Assembly (NCBI GenBank): GCA_903924955.1
Contig: CAIYDK010000613.1
Coordinates: forward strand, 1-35,526
Source: an uncultured beta proteobacterium
Lineage (GTDB): Bacteria > Pseudomonadota > Gammaproteobacteria > Burkholderiales > Burkholderiaceae_C
Direction of reading: 5' to 3'
DNA length: 35,526 nt
Part shown: in pieces, positions 6,442 to 28,091 of the stretch
Numbering within the stretch: the stretch's first letter is position 1
How the letters are laid out: each line of letters begins with the position of its first letter
Made by a program: the position numbers and the translations under genes
Notes under the pieces: model-generated
Databases searched by the model: none
What the model saw: the letters and a program-made list of their open reading frames with translations, nothing else
What the model was told of the DNA's origin: nothing

Positions 6442-6768
6442 ATGAAGTTAAAGTTGTTTTTCGCCGCTGGGATCGCCGCATTGGCCTCCAGTGCTGCCAT
6501 GGCCGATGGTGCCGCGCTGTACGCTGAAAAAACGTGTATCGCCTGCCACGGCAAAGAGGGTAAGAAACCGATGATCCCGGCGTTCCCCAAAATAGCGGGA
6601 CAAAACGCCGCTTACATCGAACTACAAATGCGTGACATAAAGAGCGGCGCGCGGGCCAATGGCAGCAGCGCAGCGATGAAGGGTGTTATGGTCAACCCTG
6701 AAGGCGTGGAACTCGTGACGGACAAGGATATTAAAGACTTGGCGCTGTATCTTTCCAAGCTCAAGTAG
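6442..6768 (+). CDS. Small periplasmic monohaem cytochrome c (NosC1-like)
   Basis: A 108-aa class I cytochrome c with an N-terminal signal peptide (cleavage probably after the AMA at about residue 21), one haem-binding motif CIACH near residue 32, and a probable Met axial ligand in the SSAAMKGVM region. It is preceded by a good ribosome site (AAAAAGG) and the nosZ-nosC1 hairpin. In clade II nos clusters such as that of Wolinella, small c-type cytochromes next to nosZ are proposed to pass electrons from the membrane NosGH quinol dehydrogenase to N2O reductase. Position and size support the same role here. The label NosC1 is by position, not by demonstrated orthology. Confidence 0.88.
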   Translation: MKLKLFFAAGIAALASSAAMADGAALYAEKTCIACHGKEGKKPMIPAFPKIAGQNAAYIELQMRDIKSGARANGSSAAMKGVMVNPEGVELVTDKDIKDLALYLSKLK

Positions 6769-6804
6769 TCCGAATCCCAATTGCAAACATCCGGAGTTAC
6801 AAAT

Positions 6805-7548
6805 ATGAAAAAAATTCTTGTGCTGGCGCTGTCGCTGGTTTTAGCCCCCGTGATCGCCTTCGCTGGCGGCCCACCTGCCGCCACGCAGGCTGGTATTGAA
6901 TCCAAAGATTACAAATGGAACGCTCAGGAAGGCGAAAAAATTGAAGCCCTTAAGCTCAAGGGCAGCGCCAAAGAAGGTAAAGAGGGTTACGAGGTATGCG
7001 GTGCCTGCCATCTGCCTTCAGGGGCTGGGCGTACTGACGGCACGTTTCCACAACTTGCCGGTCAGCACACTACGGTCTTGATCAAGCAAATGGCGGATAT
7101 TCGTGCAGGCCTGCGCGACAACCCGACCATGTACCCCTTCGCCAAGGAGTTGACTGATGCGCAAGAGCTAGCCAACGTGTCCGCTTACATCGAGAGCCTG
7201 TGCATCCCTATTGACCATGGACGCTACGAAGGTGCTGATGCAGCCAAGCAAATTGCGGACGGCAAGACGATGTACGAGAAAGAGTGCATTGAGTGCCACA
7301 AGGCCAATGGTGAAGGCGTCAAGGACAAGTTCTATCCGGTGCTCGCCGGACAGCATTACAAGTACCTGTTGCGTCAGATGACCGAGATTCGCGATGGCAA
7401 ACGCCGCAACGCTAATCCGGACATGGTGACCATCATCAAGAAATACGACAATGCGCAACTTGTCGCCATTTCTGCCTATCAGTCCAGCCTGGTCATGCCC
7501 GGCTCGATGTGTAAAGCGGGTGCTGCAAAGCCTGCCAAGAAAAAGTAA
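6805..7548 (+). CDS. Periplasmic dihaem cytochrome c (NosC2-like)
   Basis: A 247-aa cytochrome c4-like protein with two class I haem domains: CGACH in the first half and CIECH in the second, each followed by a GQH...K/R-Q-M pattern (LAGQHTTVLIKQM and LAGQHYKYLLRQM). The start chosen is the ATG at 6805, which gives a clean signal peptide and a CCGGAG ribosome site; the upstream start at 6781 would place nine extra residues before the signal. It probably relays electrons to NosZ or to the smaller cytochrome. A second dihaem protein of similar design is encoded at 27435-28091 on the other strand, so this organism has at least two related electron carriers. Confidence 0.88.
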   Translation: MKKILVLALSLVLAPVIAFAGGPPAATQAGIESKDYKWNAQEGEKIEALKLKGSAKEGKEGYEVCGACHLPSGAGRTDGTFPQLAGQHTTVLIKQMADIRAGLRDNPTMYPFAKELTDAQELANVSAYIESLCIPIDHGRYEGADAAKQIADGKTMYEKECIECHKANGEGVKDKFYPVLAGQHYKYLLRQMTEIRDGKRRNANPDMVTIIKKYDNAQLVAISAYQSSLVMPGSMCKAGAAKPAKKK

Positions 7549-7557
7549 ACAGCCGAC

Positions 7558-8550
7558 ATGCAAGACCAGACCAAACAAAATCGCCTGATCACTATTCTTA
7601 CGTTGGTCGCCTTGGTGGCCATGATCAGCGCTTTTTTTGCCCCAATCTGGTGGGTATCACTCACCGCGCCTAACTATCCGAAGGATGCTTTTCCGGATGG
7701 CATTCGTATCCATTTTCATTTTGATGTGGTGAAAAACGGATGCAGCGCAGTGGGTGCCAGTACGCGTATGGGGTCAGAGACCATGCAGGCCGATATGGGA
7801 CCTGACTCCGAGCGCTACAACCCGATTCTGGATGCCAAGAAAGACGTCAACAAGGACGCGGCTGGACTGGACTGCGTTCACGAGATGAACACGATCAATC
7901 ACTATGTCGGGATGTTTCCCATTGCAACAGGTGCACCGGTCGAGAAGCCACTGGCAAAGTTTTTCTTTGGTTTTTTCGCTGTCATGCTGTTGGGCTTCAT
8001 CACGCCAGAGGGAAAGCGTCGTCAGCTCGTTTTGGGAAGTGGTTTTGCGGCAGTTGCAGTCTGGATGCTTGTGCACCAATTTGTCTTGGGCCACTTGGCT
8101 GAACACGTCAAGAACTATACGGCCGAGGCTGCAACGTTTTTCAACGAGCCAGCGCGTATCAAGGTATGGGGCGACAATGTCACCCTTTACAGTCAGATTG
8201 CCATGGGTGGCCTGATCGCCGCAATGTTGGTCGTATGGATTGGCGTTGCAAAGTTCCGACGGTTCGTGTTGTTGCTCGTTCTGGTCCCAAGTTTGCTGCC
8301 TCTGTATTTTGTGATCGAGTATGCCGGTTGGCTATGGTTCTTTGGTCACAATATGCATGCGTGGGGTGCTTTTACGGTCAAGCCGTTTATGCCGACCCTG
8401 TTTGGTGAGGGCAAGGTAGCTCAATTTTCTACGTATTCCTATCCATACTGGGGCTATGGATTGTTGATGGTGGTTTTCGTTTGTTTGACCCTGGCCATGC
8501 TGTTGCGTCGGCGCCAGTTACGCGAAACAGATCAAGGATTTGGGGCTTAG
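7558..8550 (+). CDS. nosB: NosB-type integral membrane protein of clade II nos clusters
   Basis: A 330-aa membrane protein with a TM helix near residues 12-32, a periplasmic loop of about 100 residues that includes LDCVHEMNTINHYVGM, then at least four more TM segments (about 134-150, 157-178, 213-228, 233-257) and one near the C-terminus (about 300-317). The order nosZ, cytochromes, then a polytopic protein directly before nosD, and the NHYVGM motif, are what is described for nosB, a gene of unknown biochemical role that marks clade II N2O reductase clusters. A role in assembly or electron transfer is presumed from its conservation only. It is separated by 1 bp from nosD. Confidence 0.8.
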   Translation: MQDQTKQNRLITILTLVALVAMISAFFAPIWWVSLTAPNYPKDAFPDGIRIHFHFDVVKNGCSAVGASTRMGSETMQADMGPDSERYNPILDAKKDVNKDAAGLDCVHEMNTINHYVGMFPIATGAPVEKPLAKFFFGFFAVMLLGFITPEGKRRQLVLGSGFAAVAVWMLVHQFVLGHLAEHVKNYTAEAATFFNEPARIKVWGDNVTLYSQIAMGGLIAAMLVVWIGVAKFRRFVLLLVLVPSLLPLYFVIEYAGWLWFFGHNMHAWGAFTVKPFMPTLFGEGKVAQFSTYSYPYWGYGLLMVVFVCLTLAMLLRRRQLRETDQGFGA

Positions 8551-8551
8551 C

Positions 8552-9928
8552 ATGGGTGTCAAGCGTTGGCTGATCGTGCCCACTTTGTTGTTGGGTATGA
8601 CCAGCCTGTTGGTGGCGCGCACGGCCGACACGGACGACGACACCAATCGTCCGCCTGCGTTGGGCGCGACTGCTGATCTGTCCACTGCACCCCGTGTAGG
8701 AGTGGATCGCCCAAAGCCGACATTTCCTTTGTACGAACGTGATAAGCGGGTGCATGGACTAAAGCCATTTCAGGCGTTGGTGGATGCAGCCAAACCTGGT
8801 GACGTTTTGCGTCCTCCTGCAGGGTCTTATGCAGGGCCTGTGGTGCTCACCAAGTCGCTCACGATTGAGGGTGGCGGTGTCGTTACGATTGATTCTGGCG
8901 ACCGTGGCACCGTATTCTCGGTTCAGACGGATGGCGCGGTGCTGCGCGGTCTGCATTTGACCGGTTCCGGCGACTCCCATGACACGGACGACTCGTGTCT
9001 GGATGTGCGGGGCCATCGCAATATTCTGGAGAACCTGGTCATTGATAACTGTCTCTTCGGGATCGACCTGAAGCAGTCGAACGACAACGTTCTTCGCAAA
9101 AATAAAGTCCGTTCCAAGCCTGTGGAACTGGGTGTGCGAGGTGACGGGTTGCGCCTGTGGTACAGCCACCGCAACTTGATTGAAGCGAACGAAATCTCCG
9201 ATTCTCGCGACATGGTGGCGTGGTACTCCAATGACAACATCTACCGCCGAAATGTAGGGACCCGCAGTCGCTACTCGATTCACTTCATGTTCGCCAAAGA
9301 CAACATCGTGGAGTACAACCGTTTTTACGACAATGCCGTAGGTGTTTATTTCATGTACACCGAAGGGGGGGTGTTGCGACACAACCTGATTTCGCACGCC
9401 ACGGGAGCTACGGGCATGGCGATAGGCTTCAAGGAAGCCAGCAACACGGTGATTGAAGGCAATGAGGTTATTTACTGTGCGATTGGGATAGGGTCCGATT
9501 TATCGCCCTTTCAACCCGATAGCAAGATATGGGTCAAGAACAACCGGTTTGCGTACAACGGAATTGCCGTGCAATTCACTAGCGAACTTGGTGGCAACGT
9601 GCTGAAGGACAATATTTTTGAAGGTAATCTGACCAACGTGGTGCAGGCGGGGCGAGGGAAGGCTGGTCTGAATGAATGGAATGGCAATTTCTGGGATGAC
9701 TACAAAGGGTTCGATCGGGATGGAAATGGCACTGGCGACACGCCTTACGAACTGTATGCCTACGCGGACCAGATCTGGATCGAACTACCGATCGCTCGGT
9801 TCTTCAAGACCGCTCCGGTGATGGAGTTGCTTGATTTTCTGGAGCGCTTGGCGCCTTTCTCATCACCTGAATTGACGCTGAAAGACGCCAACCCGAGATT
9901 TGTCAAACCAAATTGGGTTCTAGGATGA
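8552..9928 (+). CDS. nosD: NosD, periplasmic copper-centre maturation protein (parallel beta-helix)
   Basis: NosD works with the NosFY ABC transporter in building the CuZ centre of N2O reductase. The 458-aa protein has an N-terminal signal/anchor helix and a long run of right-handed beta-helix repeats visible as recurring N/D-rich turns (for example NILENLVIDNCLFGIDLK, NTVIEGNEVIYCAIGIG, NVLKDNIFEGNL). The C-terminus carries the conserved LDFLERLAPFSSP block. The ATG at 8552 is preferred over a TTG at 8540 inside nosB because it opens directly on the signal peptide. The stop overlaps the next gene by ATGA. A second, clearly related nosD is present at 17067-18287. Confidence 0.93.
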   Translation: MGVKRWLIVPTLLLGMTSLLVARTADTDDDTNRPPALGATADLSTAPRVGVDRPKPTFPLYERDKRVHGLKPFQALVDAAKPGDVLRPPAGSYAGPVVLTKSLTIEGGGVVTIDSGDRGTVFSVQTDGAVLRGLHLTGSGDSHDTDDSCLDVRGHRNILENLVIDNCLFGIDLKQSNDNVLRKNKVRSKPVELGVRGDGLRLWYSHRNLIEANEISDSRDMVAWYSNDNIYRRNVGTRSRYSIHFMFAKDNIVEYNRFYDNAVGVYFMYTEGGVLRHNLISHATGATGMAIGFKEASNTVIEGNEVIYCAIGIGSDLSPFQPDSKIWVKNNRFAYNGIAVQFTSELGGNVLKDNIFEGNLTNVVQAGRGKAGLNEWNGNFWDDYKGFDRDGNGTGDTPYELYAYADQIWIELPIARFFKTAPVMELLDFLERLAPFSSPELTLKDANPRFVKPNWVLG

Positions 9929-10779
9929 CTGATAGCGAAACTCCCAAGCCAGAACGTCCGGCAAAGGCTAGCAAGTCCAAGATGACGCGACAGGACCGCC
10001 GTCGCTGGATGCGCTCTGTTCTGCTGGCGGGCGGTGTTTTTGGTGCTGCACTGTCGGGCTATATGCCCCTGGCTTATGCGCAGCGAAAGCGTTTGCGACC
10101 ACCGGGTGCTCTAGACGAGAAAGACCTATTGGGTTCCTGCATTAAATGCGGTCAGTGTGTTCAGGTATGCCCCGTGCAAGCGATCAAACTGGCTGACTTG
10201 GTGGACGGGTTTGGCGTGGGCGTGCCTTATATCGACGCTCGTCAACAAGCGTGCGACTTTTCATGCGATGCGGTTCAATGCATTTTGGCTTGCCCAACCG
10301 GGTCACTGGCGTACCATAAGCCGGCGTTTTTGCCGGTGCGTGCAGGTGCTGTGCTGGCGGCTAAACCAATTTTGCTAGCCAAGGAGAAAGACCCGGAGCC
10401 AACCCTGAATCTGAAGGAGCGCATGGGCGTGGCGCATCTGGTTCGCCCCGAGTCGTGCCTAGCAGTTCAGGGCAAGGGATTCAAGGGTCAAACGCGCGGT
10501 CCTGCTTTCAAGGGGCGTATGCGCTACATGGATGTGGACCGATGGAAACCTATTGCTATAGCGGACCATCCGTATGACATACCCGAGTGCAACCTGTGCG
10601 TGTCCGAGTGTCCGGTTAAAGGTGCTATCTCCATTGAGACCTTTGTTGGCAGTGATGGGCGCCGCCGCAGTCAGCCCATCGTTCACGAACCTTGTGTGGG
10701 TTGCGGAGTCTGCGAGATGGTGTGCCCAACCGAGCAGCCTTGCATCGTGGTCGAAGCGCGAGAGGAGTGGAAAGTATGA
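9925..10779 (+). CDS. nosG: NosG/NapG-type iron-sulfur protein
   Basis: A 284-aa protein with an N-terminal twin-arginine-like segment (RQDRRRWMRS plus hydrophobic stretch) and four [4Fe-4S] cysteine sets: CIKCGQCVQVCP (72-83), CDFSC...CILACP (110-124), a set built from an upstream Cys at 178 and CNLCVSECP (222-230), and CVGCGVCEMVCP (257-268). This matches NapG and its nos-cluster homologue NosG, which with NosH form a membrane-bound quinol dehydrogenase that delivers electrons to periplasmic cytochromes c. The start at 9925 overlaps the nosD stop (ATGA), and the end overlaps nosH the same way. No nosR is present, as expected in clade II clusters, so NosGH is the best candidate for the quinol-side input. 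Confidence 0.9.
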   Translation: MTDSETPKPERPAKASKSKMTRQDRRRWMRSVLLAGGVFGAALSGYMPLAYAQRKRLRPPGALDEKDLLGSCIKCGQCVQVCPVQAIKLADLVDGFGVGVPYIDARQQACDFSCDAVQCILACPTGSLAYHKPAFLPVRAGAVLAAKPILLAKEKDPEPTLNLKERMGVAHLVRPESCLAVQGKGFKGQTRGPAFKGRMRYMDVDRWKPIAIADHPYDIPECNLCVSECPVKGAISIETFVGSDGRRRSQPIVHEPCVGCGVCEMVCPTEQPCIVVEAREEWKV

Positions 10780-11756
10780 GCGATCTGCACCGTCAGCGCT
10801 TCTTTGAACAAATCGGAATACTGTTCGGTCGCGAACCCAAGAAGCCCGTTGAATTTACTGAGCGTGTTCAACAAGTCCATGAGCTCAAGCGCATGGCCAA
10901 CAAGACCGATGTGCGGGCGGCCATCGTTCTGGCGCACAAAACGCCGCATGGCAACACGTGGCGCAATCGACGTTGGGCGGTTCTAATAGCCGTGAATTTG
11001 TTTTTTGCTGTTTCCTTCGGTTTTGATATCCAGATTCTGGAAGGCTCGTTGACGGCCTCGCGGTTGATTGGCTTTCACCTGATCGATTTGAATTCGGCAC
11101 TGCAGGTGATGCTGGCGCATAAGCACATCATTGTCAATTTGTTGATCGGCACCATGACTGTTTTGGTAATCTGGTTGCTGCTGGGTGGTCGTACATTTTG
11201 CTCCTGGGTTTGCCCTTATCACCTGGTGGCCGAGTGGGCTGAAAAGCTGCACTTATTTCTGGCACGCAAAAAATTTGTGACCGACCAGAACATGAACCGC
11301 AGGTTGCGTACCGCATTCTGGCTGATCTTTGCGCTAGCAACTTTTGGCTCTGGTTACACCGTCTTCGAGGCAATTTCACCTACTGGCATACTGTCGCGCG
11401 CATTGATTTATGGGCCTGGTGTGGCTCTCTTATGGGTTGCCGCGCTGCTATTGTTTGAGATCGTGATTTCACGGCGGGCATGGTGTCGCTATGCCTGCCC
11501 TATTGGTTTGACGTATGGAGTTGTGGGTATCCTGTCGCCGGTTCGTATCAAGTACAAAGTAGAGGGTTGTTTCCATGAAGGCGACTGTCGTAAAGTCTGC
11601 TTAGTGCCACATGTTCTCGAGACCGTCGTCAAAGGCCGCGCAGTTGACACCGAAGTGACCTTGGGTCCGGACTGCACTCGGTGTGGTTTGTGCGTGGACA
11701 CTTGTCCGACGGGGTCACTGACGTTTGACATCAAGGGACTGTCGAAACTGCTCTGA
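10776..11756 (+). CDS. nosH: NosH/NapH-type membrane quinol dehydrogenase subunit
   Basis: A 326-aa integral membrane ferredoxin. After a roughly 70-residue cytoplasmic N-terminus there are four TM helices with two cytoplasmic-side CX3CP motifs (CSWVCP after TM2 and CRYACP after TM4). A C-terminal ferredoxin domain follows with CFHEGDCRKVC and CTRCGLCVDTCP. This is the NapH/NosH layout. It is expected to oxidise menaquinol and pass electrons to NosG. The ATG at 10776 overlaps the nosG stop and has a strong AGAGGAG ribosome site. The next gene, nosF, starts about 45 bp downstream. Confidence 0.9.
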   Translation: MSDLHRQRFFEQIGILFGREPKKPVEFTERVQQVHELKRMANKTDVRAAIVLAHKTPHGNTWRNRRWAVLIAVNLFFAVSFGFDIQILEGSLTASRLIGFHLIDLNSALQVMLAHKHIIVNLLIGTMTVLVIWLLLGGRTFCSWVCPYHLVAEWAEKLHLFLARKKFVTDQNMNRRLRTAFWLIFALATFGSGYTVFEAISPTGILSRALIYGPGVALLWVAALLLFEIVISRRAWCRYACPIGLTYGVVGILSPVRIKYKVEGCFHEGDCRKVCLVPHVLETVVKGRAVDTEVTLGPDCTRCGLCVDTCPTGSLTFDIKGLSKLL

Positions 11757-11801
11757 GGCGTGCGATGCGCAGCTGTTATTCCACCTGAGATTATTGCCAT
11801 T

Positions 11802-12662
11802 GTGATTCGTTTTCAAAACCTTACCAAAACCTTCCGGCGCGCCCGGATTCTCGATGACGTCAACCTGCAAGTGGGGTTAGGAGAGCGGGTTGCACTGATC
11901 GGCTCCAATGGGGCCGGTAAAACCACCTTGATTCGCTGCCTGCTGGGCGAATATGTTCACGATGGGTTGGTCCATATCGATGGGCGTGATCCCCGCAAGC
12001 AGCGCACCGAGGTGCTGGGCATGATTGGCTTTGTGCCGCAATTGCCACCACCGCTCAAGATGCCTGTCGGTCAGTTGATCGAGTTTTCAGCCGCCTTGTG
12101 CGGTACCGCGCCACAACGTATCCATGAGATTGCAGATCGCCTGGGTCTGGATTTGAGTGGCATACTGGCCCGCCCCTTTGTCAAGCTCTCGGGTGGCATG
12201 AAGCAAAAGCTGTTGATTGCCATCGCACTGGGGCGCGATGCCAAGGTATTGGTTATGGATGAGCCAGCGGCCAACCTTGACCCCCAGGCCCGCAAGATAT
12301 TTTTTGAATTACTCGCCGAGCGCGCCAACAATGCCACCATGCTGATTTCCAGTCATCGGATCAATGAAGTTTCTTCGCTGGTCAATCGTGTGGTGGAGCT
12401 TGATATGGGCAAAGTGGTGTTGGATGAAACGGTGTCTGAGGATGTCGCGCTGAGCGGCATGCTGCGAGCAAAGGTTACCAGCAAGCGCCAGGAACCCGCT
12501 TTGAATAAGGCCCTTGGTCTGTGGGACTTTCAGGCTCTGGACGCTGACCTAACTGAATGGGAAGGACTGGTTGCAGGACCGGACCGCTTGCGCTTCTTGG
12601 GGATGGTGTCGCGCTATGTGTCGGTGGTCAACCACGTCTCCATGACTGAAATCGACTCATGA
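11802..12662 (+). CDS. nosF: NosF, ABC transporter ATP-binding subunit
   Basis: The cytoplasmic ATPase of the NosFY transporter that supports NosD in CuZ assembly; it is believed to export a sulfur species. Length 286 aa from a GTG at 11802, chosen because the ABC fold begins at once (IRFQNLTKTF) and because a GTG at 11760 would add 14 atypical residues. Walker A GSNGAGKTT is at 34-42, the signature LSGGMKQ at 129-135 and Walker B VLVMDEP at 149-155, followed by a D-loop (LDP) and an H-loop in SSHR. The last 90 residues are outside the core ATPase. It overlaps nosL by ATGA. Confidence 0.92.
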   Translation: MIRFQNLTKTFRRARILDDVNLQVGLGERVALIGSNGAGKTTLIRCLLGEYVHDGLVHIDGRDPRKQRTEVLGMIGFVPQLPPPLKMPVGQLIEFSAALCGTAPQRIHEIADRLGLDLSGILARPFVKLSGGMKQKLLIAIALGRDAKVLVMDEPAANLDPQARKIFFELLAERANNATMLISSHRINEVSSLVNRVVELDMGKVVLDETVSEDVALSGMLRAKVTSKRQEPALNKALGLWDFQALDADLTEWEGLVAGPDRLRFLGMVSRYVSVVNHVSMTEIDS

Positions 12663-13183
12663 GACGCCGTGCATTTTTGTTGGGTGGATTTTCGCTGACG
12701 TCCACTGCAGCCATGCTGCTTACAGCGTGTGGCGAGGACAAAGACCTGCCCAATGGCATGGCCGTTTTCAAATGGGACCGCGATGTCTGCACGCGTTGCC
12801 GGATGGCAATTTCTGACCACCGGTTTGCGAGTCAAATCCGTGGTGGCCCCAAAGACACTGTCTTCAAGTTTGACGATATCGGTTGTGCTGCCACTTGGTT
12901 GGCTGAAAAGGGCAAAGAATATCCGTGGATGGCCGACGTCGCCACCCGCATTTGGGTAGCGGAGTTCGCCAGCAACGGCAAGAACTGGTTGGATGCTACT
13001 GCCGCGCACTACGTTGGTGGCAAGACGTCGCCTATGGGCTACAACTACGCAGCTTACGCAAAGGCCCAGGGTGACAGTATTTCCTTTGACACCATGGGGC
13101 AGAAGACATCCTCGACTTGGCCAGCCAATTGCCATCCGGGCAGTGTGACGACGGCATCCGTGGGTTCTGCACTTTCGAAATGA
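12659..13183 (+). CDS. nosL: NosL, copper-binding lipoprotein chaperone
   Basis: NosL is an outer-membrane-facing lipoprotein that binds Cu(I) and supplies copper for N2O reductase. The 174-aa product starts with an arginine-rich N-terminus, a hydrophobic stretch and a lipobox ending at C24 (LLTAC). The Cu(I) site is visible as CTRCRM (C44, C47, M49), and the NosL fold continues to about residue 140 (DDIGC, WVAEF, PMGYNYAAYA). The C-terminal 25 residues are low in conserved features and contain a lone Cys. It lies between nosF and nosY, whereas the usual order is nosDFYL; the insertion of nosL between the ABC genes is a feature of this cluster type. Confidence 0.92.
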   Translation: MRRRAFLLGGFSLTSTAAMLLTACGEDKDLPNGMAVFKWDRDVCTRCRMAISDHRFASQIRGGPKDTVFKFDDIGCAATWLAEKGKEYPWMADVATRIWVAEFASNGKNWLDATAAHYVGGKTSPMGYNYAAYAKAQGDSISFDTMGQKTSSTWPANCHPGSVTTASVGSALSK

Positions 13184-13199
13184 ACAAAGATCTGACACG

Positions 13200-14027
13200 A
13201 TGAAACAACTCTGGCTCACGGCCAAACTCGATATGGCGGAATCCCTGCGGGCGCGCTGGTTCCTTATTTACACATTGGTTTTCGGCGGCATCGTTGCCTT
13301 GCTATTTCTGTTTGGCTTGACAGAGTCACGCGTGCTGGGCTTCATTGGTCTGTCGCGGTTGCTGGTGACCTATATTCAATTGACCATGGCCATCCTGCCG
13401 ATCTTTGTACTCATCACCACTGTGCGCTCTGTAGCGGGTGACCGGGAGGCCGGTGTCTTTGAGTACCTGCTGTCCCTGCCCGTGTCATTGGGCGCCTGGT
13501 TTTGGGGCAAAATTTTAGGGCGTTACCTCGTCATTTTTCTTCCCGTTTTCGGCGCGATGCTGATGGCGGTGGTGATTGCGCTGGTGCGCGGCATTCCAGT
13601 GCCGTGGGGCATTTTCGGGTACTACACCGCCTTGCTCGCTGTGATGGCTGCGTGCTTTCTGGGCATTGGTATGTTGATCTCGTCGCTGGCTCGCAGCACC
13701 GACATGGCTCAGGGCGCAGCCTTTATGGTCTGGCTCACATTTCTGTTGTTCCTCGACCTGATTCTGCTGGGCGTCATGATTCAGGGCAAAGTGGCCCCAG
13801 AGATTGCCGTCATGATGGCGCTAGCCAACCCGCTACAGGTGTTCCGCACCGCGGCCTTGGCACTGTTCGATCCGCAACTTATCGTACTGGGTCCGTCGGC
13901 CTTCGTGATTCTGGACACCTTCGGCGTGTTGGGGTACAAAATTTTTGCGTTGGCCTACCCGCTTGCTTTGGGCATAGCGTCCGCCGCCGTGGGGTTTGTG
14001 TTTTTCAGGCGAGGAGATTTGCCGTGA
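13200..14027 (+). CDS. nosY: NosY, ABC transporter permease
   Basis: The 275-aa membrane subunit partners NosF. Six hydrophobic helices can be seen (about 20-42, 52-75, 100-128, 138-160, 172-195, 245-268). Between the second and third helices is the coupling motif region RSVAGDREAGVFEYLLSLP, typical of ABC-2 type NosY permeases. The start is 16 bp after the nosL stop, and the stop overlaps the next gene as GTGA. Together with NosD and NosF it forms the machinery for the sulfur/copper centre CuZ. Confidence 0.92.
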   Translation: MKQLWLTAKLDMAESLRARWFLIYTLVFGGIVALLFLFGLTESRVLGFIGLSRLLVTYIQLTMAILPIFVLITTVRSVAGDREAGVFEYLLSLPVSLGAWFWGKILGRYLVIFLPVFGAMLMAVVIALVRGIPVPWGIFGYYTALLAVMAACFLGIGMLISSLARSTDMAQGAAFMVWLTFLLFLDLILLGVMIQGKVAPEIAVMMALANPLQVFRTAALALFDPQLIVLGPSAFVILDTFGVLGYKIFALAYPLALGIASAAVGFVFFRRGDLP

Positions 14028-14575
14028 CCGGTGCCGCCGCGCGGTGGCTACATGGCCCACGCCTGATGGGTCTGGTGGCTTTTTTGGTGAGCCATTTTGC
14101 AGTTGCAGCGGGCACCATTGCGCCTGCCGACAGCACCGCGTTGTTTGCAGCCGATTTGATTGACTTGGATAGCCAGGCCGTGACACTAGGCAAGTACCGT
14201 GGCAAACCGCTGATAGTGAATTTCTGGGCACGCTGGTGCGGGCCTTGCAAAGTTGAAATTCCGGAGCTGGTCAGCTTGCAAAAGCGCAACACCGGGGTGG
14301 AGGTGCTCGGGCTCAATCTGGAAAACAACGCACCCACCGTGCGTGACTTTGCGTTTGCATACGACGTCAACTACCCTGTCTTTTTGACTAAGGAATCAGG
14401 TCTGGCATTGATGCAGGCCCTGGGTAATAGCAAGTCAGTATTGCCCTTTACGGTTGTCATTAATCGCCACGGCAACATCGTCAGCACCCATGTGGGCGCT
14501 ATGACGCGTGAGAAGCTGGACGCTGCGGTTCAACTGGCTTTGAGATCGGTTCCCGAACCCAAGCAGTCGCCATGA
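14024..14575 (+). CDS. TlpA/ResA-like periplasmic thiol-disulfide oxidoreductase
   Basis: A 183-aa membrane-anchored thioredoxin. The GTG at 14024 overlaps the nosY stop and has GAGGAG eight bases upstream, so the much longer open frame to the left (inside nosY) is not used. Residues 13-29 form a signal anchor. The catalytic motif WCGPC is at 71-75 in a normal TlpA context (KPLIVNFWARWCGPC), and the cis-proline loop is in SVLPFTVVI. Inference: it keeps the cysteines of the SCO protein, NosL or the cytochromes c reduced, so that copper or haem can be inserted. TlpA-SCO partnership in CuA maturation is known from Bradyrhizobium. It ends in an ATGA overlap with the methyltransferase gene. Confidence 0.87.
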   Translation: MTGAAARWLHGPRLMGLVAFLVSHFAVAAGTIAPADSTALFAADLIDLDSQAVTLGKYRGKPLIVNFWARWCGPCKVEIPELVSLQKRNTGVEVLGLNLENNAPTVRDFAFAYDVNYPVFLTKESGLALMQALGNSKSVLPFTVVINRHGNIVSTHVGAMTREKLDAAVQLALRSVPEPKQSP

Positions 14576-15309
14576 CGGCCGAGCACGACATCAATCGCAG
14601 TTTTGGCAGCGAGGCAGTCAACCAGACGCAGCGCCGTGAGCGCATCCGTATTGTGTTCAACGCCGTGGCGCGGCGCTATGACTTGATGAATGACCTGATG
14701 AGCATGGGCATTCACCGACTGTGGAAACGCACGTTGGCCCGGCGCGTGGGGCATGTGCAGGGGCGGGTGGTCGATCTGGCCGGCGGCACCGGCGATGTTG
14801 CACGGCTACTGCTGCGGCCTGGGCGCGATGTCACAGTGTGTGACCCCAGCTTGGCCATGATGCAAGTGGGCCAGCAACGCAAAGGTGCCACGCAATTGCA
14901 ATGGTTGGCTGGCGAGGCCGAGAATTTGCCACTGGCCGATGGCACGGTCGATTTGTTGACCGTCTCCTTTGGCTTGCGCAATGCAACCCATCTGGAGAAA
15001 GCGTTGACCGAGGCTCTGCGTGTCCTCAAGCCTGGCGGCAGTTTTGTTTGTCTGGAATTTTCACAACCCGCGTTTTGGCTTGCACCTTTTTACAACCTGT
15101 ACTCATTTTTGGTAATTCCCCGCCTTGGGGCCGCAGTAGCGGGGGAACCCATGGCATACCAATACCTGGTTGAATCGATTCGGCGATTTCCTCCACAACA
15201 AGGTTTTGCTGATTTGATGCGTGCTGCCGGCTTCGCTGACGTGCGTTGGGAAAATTTGTCCTTTGGGATTGCCTGCCTGCATTTTGGTGTCCGCGCCCAT
15301 GAAAGCTGA
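14572..15309 (+). CDS. UbiE/MenG-family quinone C-methyltransferase
   Basis: A 245-aa SAM-dependent methyltransferase of the UbiE/COQ5/MenG family, which C-methylates demethylmenaquinone and/or the ubiquinone precursor. Family signatures are present: YDLMNDLMSMGIHRLWK (36-52), SAM-binding DLAGGTGD (68-75), SFGLRN (132-137), KPGGSFVCLEFS (153-164) and YQYLVESIRRFP (197-208). The gene overlaps both neighbours (ATGA with the thioredoxin, 11 bp with the MenA-like gene), so it is translated with the nos genes. Because its direct neighbour is MenA-like, I read it as a MenG dedicated to menaquinone, but UbiE enzymes can serve both quinones. Whether the genome has a second housekeeping ubiE is not visible here. 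Confidence 0.88.
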   Translation: MTAEHDINRSFGSEAVNQTQRRERIRIVFNAVARRYDLMNDLMSMGIHRLWKRTLARRVGHVQGRVVDLAGGTGDVARLLLRPGRDVTVCDPSLAMMQVGQQRKGATQLQWLAGEAENLPLADGTVDLLTVSFGLRNATHLEKALTEALRVLKPGGSFVCLEFSQPAFWLAPFYNLYSFLVIPRLGAAVAGEPMAYQYLVESIRRFPPQQGFADLMRAAGFADVRWENLSFGIACLHFGVRAHES

Positions 15310-16213
15310 TCGCCCGTCGGGCTTGATGTCCAGCCCCGGCCAAAGTCTGATGGTCTGGTGGACGGCCATTCGCCCACGCACCCTGAGTATTGCTGCAACA
15401 CCCGTAGTGCTGGGTTCCGCGCTGGCCTGGGCAGACGGCGCACCGATGCTGCTACCCGTTCTTCTGGCCACGCTTGCGTGCGCGCTGTTGATTCAAGTTG
15501 GCACCAATTTGCACAATGATGTTGCCGACTTTGAACGCGGAACCGACCGGCCTGACCGCGTTGGCCCCCTGCGCGTGACCGCTGCAGGCTGGGTGCGACC
15601 GGGCAGCGTGCGCACGGCAGCGCGATCCAGTTTTGCACTAGCGCTGGCTCTGGGCCTTTATCTGGTGCTACAGGGCGGCTGGCCCATTCTGTTGACGGGC
15701 GTTGCGTCGTTGGTGGCAGGCTGGTCTTACTCGGGGGGTGAGCGGCCCATTTCGCACACTGCGTGGGGTGAGGTGTTTGTGCTGGTGTTTTTTGGCCTCG
15801 TGGCCGTGGCTGGAAGCCACTGGTTGCAACATGGCGATGCCTTGGTCGATGCCCTGCTGTGCGGAACTGTCGTCGGTCTGCCTGCCGCTGCGGTCCTGCT
15901 GGTCAATAATTTCCGCGATGTCGAGAATGACCTGCGCAGTGGACGGCGCACCTTGGCTGCGCGCCTGGGAGATCTGGGTTCCAGGCGCGCTTATGCTGCC
16001 ATGGTGCTATTCCCGATTGCCTTGGCTGGCGTACTGGCCTTGCATGGGCGCACAGGAGTGTTGCTGGCCATCTTGGCAACGCCCTATGCCTGGGCACTGC
16101 TGCCGCGCCTGCAGCGCAGTGCAGGTGGCGCCGCCTTGAACGCGCTGCTGGGTGCCACTGCACGGCTGGGGTTGATATTGGGTGTCTTGTTGTCCGTGGG
16201 TGTTTTTCTATGA
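15299..16213 (+). CDS. menA: MenA-like naphthoate prenyltransferase (UbiA superfamily)
   Basis: A 304-aa integral membrane prenyltransferase with about nine helices. MenA joins a polyprenyl chain to 1,4-dihydroxy-2-naphthoate with decarboxylation. The two Asp-rich motifs are NLHNDVADFERGTD (70-83) and NNFRDVENDLRSGRRTLAARLG, which begins at residue 203; the middle loop reads YSGGERPISHTAWGE (144-158). The NNFRD...DxxxGRRTLAxRLG form is that of MenA rather than UbiA (4-hydroxybenzoate) enzymes. The ATG at 15299 gives an 11-bp overlap with the methyltransferase gene; an upstream start at 15221 would add residues from inside it. The stop overlaps the transporter start (ATGA). An MqnP-type enzyme of the futalosine pathway is an alternative. 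A menaquinone enzyme inside a nos operon is unexpected in a betaproteobacterium. Confidence 0.85.
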   Translation: MKADRPSGLMSSPGQSLMVWWTAIRPRTLSIAATPVVLGSALAWADGAPMLLPVLLATLACALLIQVGTNLHNDVADFERGTDRPDRVGPLRVTAAGWVRPGSVRTAARSSFALALALGLYLVLQGGWPILLTGVASLVAGWSYSGGERPISHTAWGEVFVLVFFGLVAVAGSHWLQHGDALVDALLCGTVVGLPAAAVLLVNNFRDVENDLRSGRRTLAARLGDLGSRRAYAAMVLFPIALAGVLALHGRTGVLLAILATPYAWALLPRLQRSAGGAALNALLGATARLGLILGVLLSVGVFL

Positions 16214-17070
16214 AGCCCGACGTGGTGCAAACGCTGTTGCCGCTGGCGCTGGCGTTCATCATGTTTTATCTGGGGTTGACGCTGGTTATTGGGGATTTTC
16301 GGCAAGTCGCCCAGCGTCCCAAGGCGCTTCTGGTGGGGTTGGTCGCTCAGGTGCTGCTGGTTCCCCTAGCCGGGTTTGCAGTGGCCAGTTGGAGTGGCTT
16401 GGTCCCGACGATGGCCGTAGGCCTCATGGTGCTGGCGGCTTGTCCCAGCGGGGTTAGCTCAGGCTTGTTGACCCATTTGGCCAGGGGCGATACTGCCCTG
16501 GCAATTTCACTCACGGCTGTTACCAGCATTGCTGCGGTGCTGACGCTGCCACTGGTGGTGGGCGCATCGTTTCAGTTTTTCATGGCCAGTCAACTGGCGG
16601 TGCAACTGCCGGTGGAAGCCATGGTCAAGGGCATTTTTATACTCACCACACTTCCGGTTTTTCTGGGCATGGTTTTGCGTTGGCGCTTTGCCCAGCGGGT
16701 GATGCGTGTGGAGCCCATGATTGGCAAAGTAACGACCACCCTGTTCGTGCTGATTGTGATCAACACTTTTTGGGATCAGCGCCAGGTGTTGCTCGATAAC
16801 CTGCCGCTCCTGGGGCCGGCTGTGCTGCTGCTCAATGTGCTCATACTGGCCGGTGCCTATTTGCTGTCGCTGGTGAATCGGTTGAATCGGCGTGATCGAA
16901 TCGCCGTTATCACCGAATGCGGTTTGAAAAACTCGGCACTTGGCATTGTGGTTTGCCTGCAGTGGCTGCAGCAACCGGCCATGAGTGCGCCCAGCGTAGT
17001 CTACGCACTGTCGATGAACGCCTTCGCCCTGACGTTTGTCGTCTTGATGCGCAAAACCACGAAGCTGTGA
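16210..17070 (+). CDS. Bile acid:sodium symporter (BASS) family transporter
   Basis: A 286-aa polytopic membrane protein with about nine to ten helices and no signal sequence. Family marks include LAACPSGVSSGLLTHLARGD (83-102) with its unwound-helix Pro-Ser region, ALAISLTAVTSI just after it, and ECGLKNSALGIVV near residue 236, matching the crossover helices of SLC10/BASS carriers. These carriers move organic anions, usually with sodium; bacterial members also transport small carboxylates. It is encoded between menA and nosD2 with start-stop overlaps on both sides, so its substrate is probably tied to that block. Candidates are an aromatic carboxylate such as the MenA substrate, or a sulfur or small carboxylate compound. 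The substrate cannot be read from the sequence. Confidence 0.85.
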   Translation: MKPDVVQTLLPLALAFIMFYLGLTLVIGDFRQVAQRPKALLVGLVAQVLLVPLAGFAVASWSGLVPTMAVGLMVLAACPSGVSSGLLTHLARGDTALAISLTAVTSIAAVLTLPLVVGASFQFFMASQLAVQLPVEAMVKGIFILTTLPVFLGMVLRWRFAQRVMRVEPMIGKVTTTLFVLIVINTFWDQRQVLLDNLPLLGPAVLLLNVLILAGAYLLSLVNRLNRRDRIAVITECGLKNSALGIVVCLQWLQQPAMSAPSVVYALSMNAFALTFVVLMRKTTKL

Positions 17071-18287
17071 CCGTGCTGCGCGCTGCCTTGTTTTGTGTGT
17101 TGATGGTGTGGACTGTAGCCATTTCATCCGCCACCCCCGGTATGCTTTCCTTGCAGACCTTGATTGATGCAACGCCCAAAGGCGCTACGCTGCGCCTGGC
17201 ACCCGGTGTGTACCAGGGGCCGGTTAACGTGCTGACGCCCATGGTGATAGAAGGCGGTCACGCAGCGGTTATTCAGGGCGACGGGCACAGTACCGTGCTC
17301 AGTGTGCAGACCAATGACGTCACGCTGCGCGGTCTTCGACTGCGGGGTAGTGGTGAGTCGCACGACCGTGTGGATGCCGGTTTGTTGCTGCAAGGCGAGG
17401 GCCACCGGGTCGAAGACAATGACATTGAAGACGTACTCTTTGGCATTCACTTAAAAGCAGTCAACTATTCAGTCATCAAGGGCAACCGCGTGACTGGCAA
17501 GCCCCTGGCGATAGGACTGCGAGGGGATGCGATTCGCATGTGGAACAGCCATGACAACCGCGTGGACAGCAATGATTTTTCACGCGCACGTGACATCACA
17601 TTGGCGAACTCCCCCAAAAATTTCATTGTGGGCAACCGCTTTACCGATGGCCGCTATGGCATGCACTTGATCTTTTCGCCTCATGTGCACATTGAGGGAA
17701 ACCATTTGACCCACACCGGCACCGGCATTGTGGGGCTGTACTCCCCCGAACTCACTATTGCCCGCAATCACATTGCCCACGCGTTGACCGATGGTGGTGC
17801 CGGTATCGTCATCAAGGAGAGCCCGCGCTCGGTGGTTGAAAACAACCAGATACTGCATTGTGCCGTGGGTCTAAAAGCGGATGCGTCACTGGACGTCGAC
17901 AGCGCGCTGGTGGTTCGCAGCAATCAGTTTGCACACAATATCATTGGCCTGTTTTTTTATGGCGAGGCGGGTGGCCACCAGTTCACAGGCAACCGGTTCG
18001 AAAGCAATTTGACTACGGTGGCCATCAGCGCGCCGGGCGCGGGCAGCGCCAATGTGTGGATGGGCAACACCTGGGATGAATACCAGGGCTTTGACCGCAA
18101 CAAGGACGGTATCGGCGACACTGCGCATGAGCTTTTTTTATTTGCCGACCGTATCTGGATGGAAACGCCCATGGCTACCTTTTTCCGCAATTCACCAGCG
18201 CTCGAAATGCTGGATTTTTTGGAACGCCTTGCGCCATTTTCTTCGCCCCACAAGATCTTGCATGACCCAAAACCCCGGATGCATTAA
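17067..18287 (+). CDS. Second NosD-like parallel beta-helix protein (NosD paralogue)
   Basis: A 406-aa paralogue of the upstream NosD. The GTG at 17067 overlaps the transporter stop (GTGA); a GTG at 17073 is equally possible, and both give the same signal peptide (ending near ISSATPG). Beta-helix turns recur throughout (LLQGEGHRVEDNDIEDVLFG, IAGNRFTDG-like turns, SVVENNQILHCAVGLK). The C-terminal block is almost the same as in NosD1: LDFLERLAPFSSP preceded by ADRIWMETPMATFF (ADQIWIELPIARFF in NosD1). It is shorter in the N-terminal third. Either it shares CuZ maturation, works with another ABC partner or client, or is a redundant duplicate. The cluster shows only one nosF and one nosY. Confidence 0.88.
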   Translation: MTVLRAALFCVLMVWTVAISSATPGMLSLQTLIDATPKGATLRLAPGVYQGPVNVLTPMVIEGGHAAVIQGDGHSTVLSVQTNDVTLRGLRLRGSGESHDRVDAGLLLQGEGHRVEDNDIEDVLFGIHLKAVNYSVIKGNRVTGKPLAIGLRGDAIRMWNSHDNRVDSNDFSRARDITLANSPKNFIVGNRFTDGRYGMHLIFSPHVHIEGNHLTHTGTGIVGLYSPELTIARNHIAHALTDGGAGIVIKESPRSVVENNQILHCAVGLKADASLDVDSALVVRSNQFAHNIIGLFFYGEAGGHQFTGNRFESNLTTVAISAPGAGSANVWMGNTWDEYQGFDRNKDGIGDTAHELFLFADRIWMETPMATFFRNSPALEMLDFLERLAPFSSPHKILHDPKPRMH

Positions 18288-18335: not shown

Positions 18336-18701
18336 ATGAGATTGACCCTGTCTACACTTACCGCCCTGTGCCTGAGCACGTTGGCCATGCACAACCTGGT
18401 CCATGCAGCAGACACCGAGCGAGGCCTGACACTGGTTACCGAACTGGCACAAGTCAACGGGGTGGCCCTGGCCTGCCAGGACCTTGAGACTGTTGCAAAA
18501 GCGAAAAAACTGATGTTGACCCACGCGCCCAAAACGCCACGCTTTGGCAGTGCGTTTGAAGAAGCCACCAATGCCAGCTATCTGGCCCAAGTGCGTAGCG
18601 CGCCTGCTTGCCCGGACGTGGCTCAGACAGGCCGCAAACTCGACGCGCTGGCCAAGCGCTTGCAGGATGCTTTGCCCGCATCGCCGCCCGTTGCGCAATG
18701 A
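18336..18701 (+). CDS. Small periplasmic protein of unknown function
   Basis: I do not recognise the family. The 121-aa product has a clear Sec signal peptide (hydrophobic 3-17, cleavage probably after VHA at about residue 24-25), then a mature part of about 96 residues that is mostly helical and contains exactly two cysteines, C47 (VALACQDLE) and C92 (APACPDVA), which could form a disulfide. The C-terminus is proline- and alanine-rich. An AAGGA ribosome site precedes the ATG. It stands 48 bp after nosD2 and 1 bp before the SCO gene, so it belongs to the same operon. A role in copper handling or as a SCO/TlpA client is a guess from context only. Confidence 0.75.
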   Translation: MRLTLSTLTALCLSTLAMHNLVHAADTERGLTLVTELAQVNGVALACQDLETVAKAKKLMLTHAPKTPRFGSAFEEATNASYLAQVRSAPACPDVAQTGRKLDALAKRLQDALPASPPVAQ

Positions 18702-18702
18702 C

Positions 18703-19332
18703 ATGCGGCGCCCCAAAAGATCAGCTTTGACGATTGCCTGCATGACGCTTGTGCTAATGCCTGCGTCAGGCATCCCCGCCCATGCACAGAACCTCATTGC
18801 GCGGGATACGCAAGCTGCGACTGAGGTTGATGCCGCGCTTGCACCCCGCTACTTGCTGATGGGTGCAAACGGGCGGTCCGTCACATCGGAAGACTTTCGC
18901 GGGCGCTTGCAGCTGGTTGCATTTGGTTTCGTTTCGTGCCCGGATGTGTGCCCGACCACGCTGCTGGAAATGTCCCAAGTACTGGCTGCTCTGGACAAGC
19001 GGGCGCAGTATCTGCAGCCGATCTTCATCACCGTTGACCCCCAGCGCGACACGGCGCAGGTATTGGGTGCCTACACGCAGGCGTTTGATGCACGGATTGT
19101 GGGTTTGACCGGCCCGCTGGATTTGGTGCGGCGTGCGGCAGACAACTTCAAGGTTCAGTTTTCCAAGGTAATCGAGCCTGGCGCCCACCCCGACGTTTAC
19201 ACCATGGACCACACCGCTGGCATGTTCTTGCTAGGACCGGACGGTGTTCTGGTTGCCAAGTTTGGGTATGGCGCGGCGGTTGCCGAGATCACCGAGCGCA
19301 TCCAATACTGGCTCAATGTGACCGGAAAATGA
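18703..19332 (+). CDS. SCO1/SenC-family copper chaperone
   Basis: A 209-aa periplasmic protein with a signal peptide (about 8-28) and a thioredoxin-like SCO domain. The copper ligands are all present: C79 and C83 in SCPDVCP and H170 in MDHTAG; the redox neighbour region FITVDPQRD is also typical. SCO proteins insert copper into CuA sites; since NosZ has a CuA centre, it is the likely client here. The ATG at 18703, one base after the preceding stop, is chosen; the frame extends upstream only into the previous gene. It overlaps the flavoprotein gene by ATGA. The TlpA-like protein in the same operon is the likely reductant. Confidence 0.92.
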   Translation: MRRPKRSALTIACMTLVLMPASGIPAHAQNLIARDTQAATEVDAALAPRYLLMGANGRSVTSEDFRGRLQLVAFGFVSCPDVCPTTLLEMSQVLAALDKRAQYLQPIFITVDPQRDTAQVLGAYTQAFDARIVGLTGPLDLVRRAADNFKVQFSKVIEPGAHPDVYTMDHTAGMFLLGPDGVLVAKFGYGAAVAEITERIQYWLNVTGK

Positions 19333-20630
19333 AGCGCCGTGATCTCCTTGGACTGGTCGGTACCGGTGCAGGCTGGCTCGCTTTGTCGGGCTCAGCGAGG
19401 GCTGGATCAGCGACGGGTGGTGTTGCGGCTCAGCGGGTCGTCATCATTGGAGGGGCATGGGCGGGCCTGAGTGCCGCGCGCGAACTGCGACTGCGTGCAC
19501 CCGAACTGGATGTGCTGGTCATCGACCGTGAACCGACGCTGCGTTCACTGCCCCTGAGTAACCCATGGTTGGTGGGGCGCACGCCCGAGCGCCTGCCGCG
19601 TCTGGACCGGACAGCACTTGCCAACAAGCTCGGATACCGCTTTATTGCCGATGATGTGCAACGCATTGACCGGGCAGAGCGCCGCGTCCACACCGCGCAA
19701 GGGGTATTTGATTACGACTGGTTGCTGGTGGCAACCGGCCTCAGCTACGACTACAGCGCCTGGTATGGGACGGACTACAAGGCGGCCCAAGTGATGCAGG
19801 AACTATTCCCTGCGGGCTATGTTGCGAATGAGCTGGATGTGCTGAAGCAGCGGCTCCAAGCATTCAAGGGCGGCAACCTGGTGATCAACGTGCCAGCGCC
19901 TCCCAGTCGCTGTCCGCCAGCTCCCTACGAGCGGGCGATGCTGATCGCCTGGTGGATCAAGACTGAGGGCATCAAGGGCAAAGTGACCGTGCTGGACGCT
20001 GGTGGCGGTTTGCCCCGATTCACTCGCCTGTTTGCTGATCGGTACCACGGCCTGATCGATTTTCATCCCTACACGGTGATTCGCTCGGTAGACCCACTTA
20101 CGCGGCGCGTCACCACAGACGATGGAGACGTGCCGTTTGACCACGCCATGCTGTCGCCACCTATGCGTGCCAGCATGCTGATTGAGCAGGCGGGCTTGTG
20201 TAGCCTGGGCACGCAGGGCAAGTTGGCCCCCTGGGGTGCTGTTGACCCCTTGCGCTTGCACTCACTGGCGGACGAACGCGTGTTTTTGGCTGGTGATTTG
20301 CTGGGCCCGGTTTCTCCCCTTTTCGGCCACTACCCCAAAACGGCACATATGGCGACGCGGTTGGGCGTTAGTGCGGGGCGGCAAATTGCGGTGCGTAGCC
20401 GGTTCGGTAGTGATGAGTCCCTCGTGGATCTGCCAGCCAGCGTGTGTCATGTCTGGCTGGACGCAGACCCCGCTGAGCAGTTACGAATTGAGACTACTTA
20501 CCGTTTGCGTGGCGACGGCGTGATTGCACAGTCTGTGAGCCAGCACGACAACCCACAGCCCCGGGACGAAGACCTGCAATGGGGGCTTGGCTTGTATGCT
20601 CAGGCTTTGGGCGCGAGTCTGGAACGGTAA
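19329..20630 (+). CDS. Periplasmic FAD flavoprotein, flavocytochrome-c sulfide dehydrogenase (FCSD/SoxF)-like
   Basis: A 433-aa flavoprotein with a Tat-type leader (KRRDLLGLVG, cleavage near residue 25). The FAD-binding motif VVIIGGAWAG is at 37-46, ATGLSYD at 135-141, and the FCSD/SQR signature SRCPPAPYERA at 193-203 includes the first redox cysteine, C195. The second FAD contact is VFLAGDLLG (318-326), and the C-terminal FCSD domain (SVCHVWL onward) is present. In FccB the second redox cysteine lies in a GWCPV-like context; the matching place here reads APWGAVD, without Cys. The only nearby Cys is C291, about 12 residues earlier. A sulfur or thiol substrate is likely, with altered chemistry. 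No FccA-type cytochrome gene is adjacent, but nos cytochromes could accept electrons. It is the last gene of the cluster. Confidence 0.85.
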   Translation: MKRRDLLGLVGTGAGWLALSGSARAGSATGGVAAQRVVIIGGAWAGLSAARELRLRAPELDVLVIDREPTLRSLPLSNPWLVGRTPERLPRLDRTALANKLGYRFIADDVQRIDRAERRVHTAQGVFDYDWLLVATGLSYDYSAWYGTDYKAAQVMQELFPAGYVANELDVLKQRLQAFKGGNLVINVPAPPSRCPPAPYERAMLIAWWIKTEGIKGKVTVLDAGGGLPRFTRLFADRYHGLIDFHPYTVIRSVDPLTRRVTTDDGDVPFDHAMLSPPMRASMLIEQAGLCSLGTQGKLAPWGAVDPLRLHSLADERVFLAGDLLGPVSPLFGHYPKTAHMATRLGVSAGRQIAVRSRFGSDESLVDLPASVCHVWLDADPAEQLRIETTYRLRGDGVIAQSVSQHDNPQPRDEDLQWGLGLYAQALGASLER

Positions 20631-27434: not shown

Positions 27435-28091
27435 TCAAGGTTGCCCCGTCTGTATTAGGGTCAAATAGGCTAGGATGTCTTGCAGGTCTTGTGCCTTGAG
27501 TTCATTCAAAATGCCACGCATCTCCACCTCGTCATGCGAACGCTCGCCTTTGAGGAAACTGGAAATTTGCTTCATCAGGTAACTGGTGTATTGCCCCACC
27601 AAGCGTGGAAATTTGCCGCGACCCATGCCGTCCTTGCCATGACAGGCAAAGCATTCTTTTTTGTATATTTTGCCGCCGTTGTCAATGTCACCGGGCGCGC
27701 GCGGAATGATCATGACCTTTTCCATTGCGGTCAGTCGGGTCAGGGCGTCGTCATCGGGCTTGAATTCGGGCCACTCAGTTGGTAGCTCAATGGACGCCAG
27801 GTAGGCCGACACATCTTCCACATCCTGATCTGACATTTCCCGTTCCTGCGTGTAGGGGAACATGGGCAGGTTCAGGCGGGTGCGGGCGCGAAATGCCTTG
27901 AGCTGGTCAGCGATATGGGCAGCACGCTGACCTCCGATGCGTGGGTATTCGCCCTTCTTGCCGCCCTGGCCGAACTCGCCGTGGCATCCGGCGCAGGTGG
28001 CGTTGATATCTTTGCCCTTCTCAAGATTTTGGGCGCTTGCCAGCGGCATAGCAAGCATCAGAAATACGCAGAGCAGCAGTGTTTTCATCAT
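27435..28091 (-). CDS. Dihaem cytochrome c (c4-type)
   Basis: A 218-aa periplasmic cytochrome with a signal peptide ending near LASA (residue 20) and two haem motifs, CAGCH (about 33-37) and CFACH in the C-terminal domain. Each domain has the R-I/L-x-GQ pattern and later methionines suited to axial ligation (for example LNLPMFPY and EVEMRGIL). Design and length match cytochrome c4 and resemble the nos-cluster dihaem protein at 6805-7548. It is the first gene of the minus-strand operon with the ankyrin and DUF411 genes (49 bp gap to the ankyrin start). It starts 98 bp after the guaC stop; no FNR-type box was seen in that gap. Confidence 0.9.
   Translation of the reverse strand: MMKTLLLCVFLMLAMPLASAQNLEKGKDINATCAGCHGEFGQGGKKGEYPRIGGQRAAHIADQLKAFRARTRLNLPMFPYTQEREMSDQDVEDVSAYLASIELPTEWPEFKPDDDALTRLTAMEKVMIIPRAPGDIDNGGKIYKKECFACHGKDGMGRGKFPRLVGQYTSYLMKQISSFLKGERSHDEVEMRGILNELKAQDLQDILAYLTLIQTGQP

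Follow-up and report, generated by a model that had tools for sequence, protein, structure and literature searches.

The 35,526-nucleotide (nt) stretch analyzed here, hereafter the window (contig CAIYDK010000613.1 of assembly GCA_903924955.1, from an uncultured beta proteobacterium of the Burkholderiaceae_C), carries within a clade II nos operon for nitrous oxide (N2O) reduction a trio of overlapping genes coding for a UbiE-family methyltransferase (menG), a MenA-type prenyltransferase (menA) and a BASS-type carrier (bass). The trio is real and wider than one genome, and the nos-linked menaquinone module exists in two alternative forms, one with BASS and one with menBCEFD. No genes for making the starting molecule, 1,4-dihydroxy-2-naphthoate (DHNA), were detected, and this suggests that the bacterium obtains the compound from its neighbors for N2O removal. 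In our judgment the trio is probably the final part of a pathway to menaquinone (vitamin K2), fed by scavenged DHNA, with menaquinol serving NosGH.

The menG-menA-bass trio and its products

The first-pass annotation had placed the three genes, with overlapping ends, between nosY/tlpA and a second nosD, and the open reading frames, the protein families and all five junctions were verified. The overlaps amount to 4 nt for nosY/tlpA, 4 nt (ATGA) for tlpA/menG, 11 nt for menG/menA, 4 nt (ATGA) for menA/bass and 4 nt (GTGA) for bass/nosD2.

14572..15309, + strand: menG, UbiE-family demethylmenaquinone methyltransferase (TIGR01934 over cut-off)
15299..16213, + strand: menA, DHNA polyprenyltransferase (NF004751 and TIGR00751 over cut-off)
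16210..17070, + strand: bass, BASS-type carrier, proposed DHNA importer (PF01758 over cut-off; fold model)

MenG of the window scores 255.2 bits against TIGR01934 (cut-off 158.35) and 255.7 bits against the bifunctional UbiE equivalog NF001242, under its cut-off of 351, and it falls below the stricter UbiE equivalog cut-offs in general. Judged by these scores, it is a UbiE-family member other than the standard UbiE. The genome does hold a second ubiE (contig C214), a possibility raised by the first-pass annotation, and its product is 43% identical to MenG of the window.

MenA (ATG at 15299, 304 amino acids, aa) exceeds the cut-offs of two DHNA-polyprenyltransferase families, NF004751 (273.5 bits, cut-off 264) and TIGR00751 (163 bits, cut-off 102), and lies below other MenA equivalog cut-offs, e.g. 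NF004749 and NF004750. The two Asp-rich motifs typical of the UbiA superfamily are intact (N70-N73-D74-D77 and N203-N204-R206-D207-D211), their residues being invariant across 26 aligned sequences, and UBIAD1 was the only match among solved structures at E 0.1. DHNA is indicated as the substrate because relatives with the same menG-menA continue into menBCEFD instead of BASS.

The carrier exceeds the cut-off of PF01758 (Pfam SBF; 109.9 bits, cut-off 24.3), and its predicted model (predicted local distance difference test, pLDDT, 85.7) has the BASS fold, with a bacterial bile acid transporter, 6lh1, as the first match in the PDB. It resembles the bacterial BASS carriers ASBT-NM and the Yersinia frederiksenii symporter in fold (template modeling scores of 0.84 to 6lh1 and 0.86 to 4n7x) and shares their conserved E-x-G-x-x-N segment, but it is only about 22% identical to them and, in contrast to them, sits in an operon with MenA and MenG. 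The window's carrier and two other rows have K240, a position that is Q in 33 of the 37 aligned rows. Among loci with titled records, its nearest relatives, 85-89% identical, come from metagenome-assembled genomes (MAGs) of Burkholderiales, uncultured betaproteobacteria and Rhodoferax, so that the host is presumably Rhodoferax-like. A plasmid-borne cassette was considered and set aside, as each of the 16 plasmid records matching the carrier was less than 60% identical.

Carrier and full-synthesis forms across genomes

The window's genome (G000; G and L numbers denote genomes and loci) is itself a MAG, with 627 contigs, a completeness of 91.5% and a contamination of 5.3%. Besides menA, which is present, it shows the gene pattern of a DHNA scavenger: MenD and MenB gave matches far under cut-off only (3 and 13, respectively) and MqnC gave none, MenC, MenE and MenF not having been searched genome-wide. 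Four UbiA-family genes were found, and the MenA protein used as query matched only its own copy. A full menaquinone pathway elsewhere with its own menA, which the first-pass annotation had named as the finding that would undo the scavenging idea, was accordingly not seen with these queries. Four other genomes of the window's genus lacked MenA at E 1e-30.

Genomes with record titles were scanned with a carrier alignment and the best 80 of 324 relatives were kept, 43 loci with at least 44% identity and 37 below this value. Among the 43 close loci, identity thresholds gave menA in 34, menG in 29 and any of nosZ, nosY, nosH or nosD in 26 (L136, which also has nosD2, is counted here as lacking nos), and menB, menC, menD, menE or menF in none; the 37 more distant loci contained menA in no case and nos genes in two. 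Since menA accompanies 34/43 close but 0/37 distant carriers (Fisher p 2e-14, uncorrected for relatedness), the linkage is not due to chance, and BASS as an unrelated neighbor is unlikely. The co-occurrence that the first-pass annotation proposed to map thus extends well beyond the window. A 4-nt overlap of menA with bass was seen in 26 of 38 rows (from extrapolated alignment ends; three genomes entered twice under two locus names), and in two loci, L149 and L153, about 850 nt separate the two genes.

In this interval both loci encode a protein of 274-276 aa (L153 9167-9991, L149 9153-9983) with, by eye, a signal peptide and a C-terminal Phe, and homologous pieces end right before bass in L141 and L151. 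It had no Pfam family, matches to solved proteins at chance level only and a poor model (pLDDT 37); it is possibly an outer-membrane channel of an uptake path, which we regard as only a lead. In the nos clusters of two Rhodocyclaceae or Rhodocyclales MAGs, an extra UbiA-family prenyltransferase gene lies between tlpA and menG (L142 7287-8240, L148 7215-8165).

The trio was found in Rhodoferax, Rhodocyclales, Sulfuritalea, Magnetospirillum and Paramagnetospirillum, and menA-bass without a nearby menG in one genome each of Steroidobacteraceae, Woeseiaceae and Rhodospirillaceae. In Rhodoferax it also stands alone (L130-L135, including the non-MAG R. antarcticus), with upstream genes common to some of these loci and different in others, and one MAG (G792) has two copies, one stand-alone (L130) and one nos-linked (L231). 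In a further genome (G723) menG-menA-bass directly precedes napD-napA of the periplasmic nitrate reductase (L107 13269-17115, the same place as L137); NapD and a truncated NapA are the best family matches there, both below cut-off. As the trio also occurs alone or before napDA, it appears to be a functional unit in its own right, connected with anaerobic respiration and not with N2O alone. The first-pass annotation's view of a dedicated quinone module for N2O respiration therefore does not hold for the trio everywhere.

The second form emerged when 399 genomes of the order and 399 of the family were searched with MenA, giving 116 matches at E 0.001 and 28 matches at E 1e-30, respectively. Surroundings, in stretches of up to 20 kb, were read for 40 of the 42 order matches with E under 1e-40, the window's own excluded. 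In 12 of the 40 loci nos genes share the fetched stretch with menA (L038-L044, L046, L047, L052, L054, L057), and MenD exceeds its cut-off in every one of the 12 genomes, with no BASS match at E 1e-20 in any of them. Three of them (L038, L039, L041) show the order nosY-tlpA-menG-menA-menB-menC-menE-menF-menD, with families verified on L039 and with other sequence separating menC from menE in L038 and L041. Compared with the window, their menG is 65-73% and their menA 51-59% identical, and the position after menA is taken by menB where the window has BASS. In G067, menBCEFD is divergent and upstream of nosZ, with menG-menA downstream. A complete menGABCEFD set adjoining or flanking clade II nos is thus seen in the window's order in L038, L039 and L041 and in L230 with L040. 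Six loci of family f15 have menB, menA, tlpA and menC upstream of nosZ. Within the taxonomic family, three of 16 further genomes with fetched MenA surroundings carry the bass trio, in nos (G635), alone (G733) or before napDA (G723, above).

The genomes with the carrier number 45, the window's own included, and 11 of them are, by record title, not MAGs. MenD was over cut-off in 1/45, compared with 3/3 full-set controls, and a MenA homolog (E 1e-10) was present in 42/45, the exceptions being G803, where the contig begins at bass, and two MAGs. The futalosine pathway was ruled out, MqnC being over cut-off in none of 54 genomes (the 45 plus nine further MenA genomes), with one weak partial match in G821. 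The 11 non-MAG genomes lack MenD in 10 cases and MqnC in all 11, and all 11 have MenA. Among genomes with nos-linked menA, 21 have the carrier only, 12 MenD only, one both and none neither (Fisher p 2e-8, a value that ignores relatedness and joins two genome sets sampled with different queries). When the order and family are taken together, 69 genomes are MenA-positive: a close BASS (at least 58% identity) occurs in four of them, MenD in 25, both in none and neither in 40; BASS homologs with 27-35% identity, present in 14 of these genomes, were scored as not this carrier. MenA-like genes of 37-43% identity (L065, L066, L071-L075; family f20) occur in genomes without MenD, and MenB was over cut-off in the three f20 genomes tested for it (G066, G019, G387).

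A quick tree was made from 101 MenA rows, and the clade of the window in it comprises 75 rows: 42 with the carrier only, 23 with MenD only, one with both and nine with neither. The two forms interleave in the tree: the carrier loci L149 and L153 stand beside the full-set loci L038, L039 and L041, and carrier rows from Azonexus and Dechloromonas group with L048-L051 and L053, which have MenD.

The surrounding nos operon

The operon has the composition of a clade II nos cluster, with a Sec-type NosZ (TIGR04246), a NapH-type NosH (TIGR02163) and a ferredoxin NosG. Apart from the trio, its genes are as follows.

4074..6362, + strand: nosZ, clade II (Sec-type) nitrous oxide reductase (TIGR04246 922 bits, cut-off 625)
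6442..6768, + strand: cytochrome c of the nos operon (PF00034; homologs in related nos clusters)
6781..7548, + strand: second cytochrome c of the nos operon (cytochrome c family matches, all below cut-off)
7558..8550, + strand: membrane protein at the NosB position (no NCBIfam or Pfam match; homologs in related nos clusters)
8540..9928, + strand: nosD, first copy (TIGR04247 356 bits, cut-off 300)
9913..10779, + strand: nosG, 4Fe-4S ferredoxin subunit (Fer4 families; named by position)
10776..11756, + strand: nosH, NapH-type membrane subunit (TIGR02163 232 bits, cut-off 213, scored on a longer open reading frame from 10692; named by position)
11760..12662, + strand: nosF, ATPase of the ATP-binding cassette (ABC) type (182 NCBIfam matches, the best 25 ABC-type and none of these 25 over cut-off; named by position)
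12659..13183, + strand: nosL-like lipoprotein (no NCBIfam match; homologs in related nos clusters)
13200..14027, + strand: nosY, ABC permease (no NCBIfam match; 82-99% identical in most related clusters)
14024..14575, + strand: TlpA-like thioredoxin (PF08534 84.8 bits)
17067..18287, + strand: nosD, second copy (TIGR04247 332.6 bits, cut-off 300)
18336..18701, + strand: small protein after nosD2 (no match in family searches; homologs after nosD2 in many relatives)
18544..19332, + strand: SCO1/SenC copper chaperone (PF02630 151 bits; true start, by eye, probably near 18700)
19329..20630, + strand: flavoprotein related to flavocytochrome c sulfide dehydrogenase (PF21706 65 bits, cut-off 27)

The membrane protein at 7558..8550 we take to be NosB from its expected position, and the genes at 12659..13183 and 13200..14027 are presumably nosL-like and nosY, likewise from position. 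The pair of nosD copies (8540-9928, and 17067-18287 after the carrier) recurs in many related clusters, as does the flavoprotein at 19329-20630, whose homologs lie at the equivalent place 3' of SCO1. A cytochrome c with two haem domains is encoded in the window at 27435-28091 on the - strand, and near-nos homologs of it are found in L108, L125-L127, L129, L142, L143, L146, L149 and L153.

Probable scavenging of DHNA, its alternatives and its meaning

MenA and MenG suffice to convert DHNA to menaquinone in cells with a supply of polyprenyl diphosphate, and the lineage of the window is thought to use ubiquinone. We infer that BASS imports DHNA, that menaquinone is formed and that NosGH uses menaquinol. 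DHNA, or a closely similar carboxylate, would cross the inner membrane through the carrier and be prenylated by MenA with the polyprenyl diphosphate already made for ubiquinone, and MenG would methylate the product to menaquinone; NosGH would then oxidize menaquinol, and the electrons would pass via the cytochromes of the operon to the clade II NosZ. The first-pass annotation had likewise read the genes as a menaquinone module fed by scavenged DHNA, and this reading is supported, as it survived the search for a full pathway and as relatives carry the menBCEFD form.

Several observations weigh against it. Ubiquinol could be the electron source of NosGH. The carrier misses the cut-off of TIGR00841 (161.2 bits vs 326.3) and is therefore a divergent BASS member outside that subfamily. 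The search for MenB among the 45 BASS genomes covered the window's genome only. Neither MenD nor a close BASS was found in 40 of the 69 MenA-positive genomes, so that MenA without MenD need not accompany this carrier; in most of these 40, MenA is at most 46% identical to that of the window (48% in G142, G483 and G716, 47% in G299). The same holds for nine of the 75 clade rows and 33 of the 101 tree rows. Of seven independent pairs differing in MenD, three run the expected way and four show no difference in BASS (p 0.25), and of four pairs differing in BASS, three or four run the expected way, with one opposite in some pairings (p 0.125-0.625); the tree test is not significant because the independent pairs are too few. 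Magnetospirillum sulfuroxidans (G829) has both BASS and MenD, and on the 54-kb contig with its MenD no other men gene was found. Finally, four nos clusters from Azonexus have bass behind tlpA and lack menA and menG, MenA being encoded elsewhere in the genome. As a separate observation, MenD of M. sulfuroxidans lies at L223 8973-10997, adjoining a gene for a LysR-type regulator.

The alternative that survives best, though we think it rather unlikely, is that MenA and MenG do act on DHNA but the cell makes it through unrecognised or assembly-lost genes, and that BASS moves something else needed for N2O respiration or exports a product. The M. sulfuroxidans genome, the four Azonexus clusters and the 40 genomes with neither gene would fit it, as would the 91.5% completeness of the window's genome and a bacterial BASS protein solved with pantoate (8oyg, from its title). 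Yet MenD is missing from 10 of the 11 non-MAG BASS genomes just as it is from the MAGs, which rules out MAG incompleteness as the whole explanation, and BASS occupies the very position behind menA that menB takes up in relatives. Moreover, the Azonexus genomes whose nos clusters contain bass, among them the non-MAG A. hydrophilus and A. fungiphilus, themselves have MenA and no MenD.

It is improbable that the MenA-like enzyme prenylates another imported aromatic acid, which MenG would then methylate to a quinone other than menaquinone. Such a product is hinted at by the match of MenG to the NCBIfam methyl-plastoquinone methyltransferase MpqE, which at 208 bits stays under its cut-off of 335, but MenA exceeds two DHNA-prenyltransferase cut-offs and its close relatives of the same clade lie in complete menaquinone clusters. 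That the trio is a functionless, decaying remnant of a full nos-menGABCEFD cluster, which it resembles after subtraction of menBCEFD, is very improbable indeed, given that the frames of the window are intact with overlaps kept, that the trio persists in beta- and alphaproteobacteria and in other contexts (menA-bass also in gammaproteobacteria), and that a carrier was gained and genes were not merely lost. The partial pathway on scavenged DHNA is thus supported, on sequence evidence, by having passed the available genomic tests.

NosGH resembles the quinone-oxidizing NapGH, and in the clade II nos system of Wolinella succinogenes NosG and NosH likewise form a quinol-oxidizing module (PMC3475470); the available text of that source mentions no menaquinone genes, whereas here a quinone module lies inside the cluster. 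A lone menA in a respiratory operon is known from Streptococcus agalactiae, where menA is in an operon with cydAB and ndh, other men genes are absent and demethylmenaquinone (DMK-10) is formed from DHNA or short-chain quinones (PMC6030563). There, according to the portion of the article at hand, respiration is aerobic, an external quinone source is needed and no carrier is named, whereas here the partner is an N2O reductase and the operon adds a carrier and a methyltransferase. Quinone or DHNA is also obtained from other bacteria by L. plantarum and Porphyromonas gingivalis (PMC10746273; PMC12502741), and the excerpted text of PMC10746273 names no carrier and expects as yet unidentified pathways of quinone uptake. 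None of the matches listed from the open-licence PubMed Central literature could be recognised as describing a carrier for DHNA or men genes within nos clusters.

The sequence links menaquinone genes to N2O respiration in two alternative ways and supplies a candidate carrier for DHNA. Beyond this, we see an even chance that this BASS clade is a dedicated DHNA importer, that menG-menA-bass is a portable scavenging cassette for anaerobic reductases (Nos and, once, Nap), that the full-synthesis and scavenging nos forms interchange in evolution, and that many beta- and alphaproteobacteria rely on the DHNA of their neighbors to remove N2O. If so, pure cultures without DHNA would underestimate the capacity for N2O removal, and the removal of this strong greenhouse gas by communities would hinge on the cross-feeding of a vitamin K precursor.

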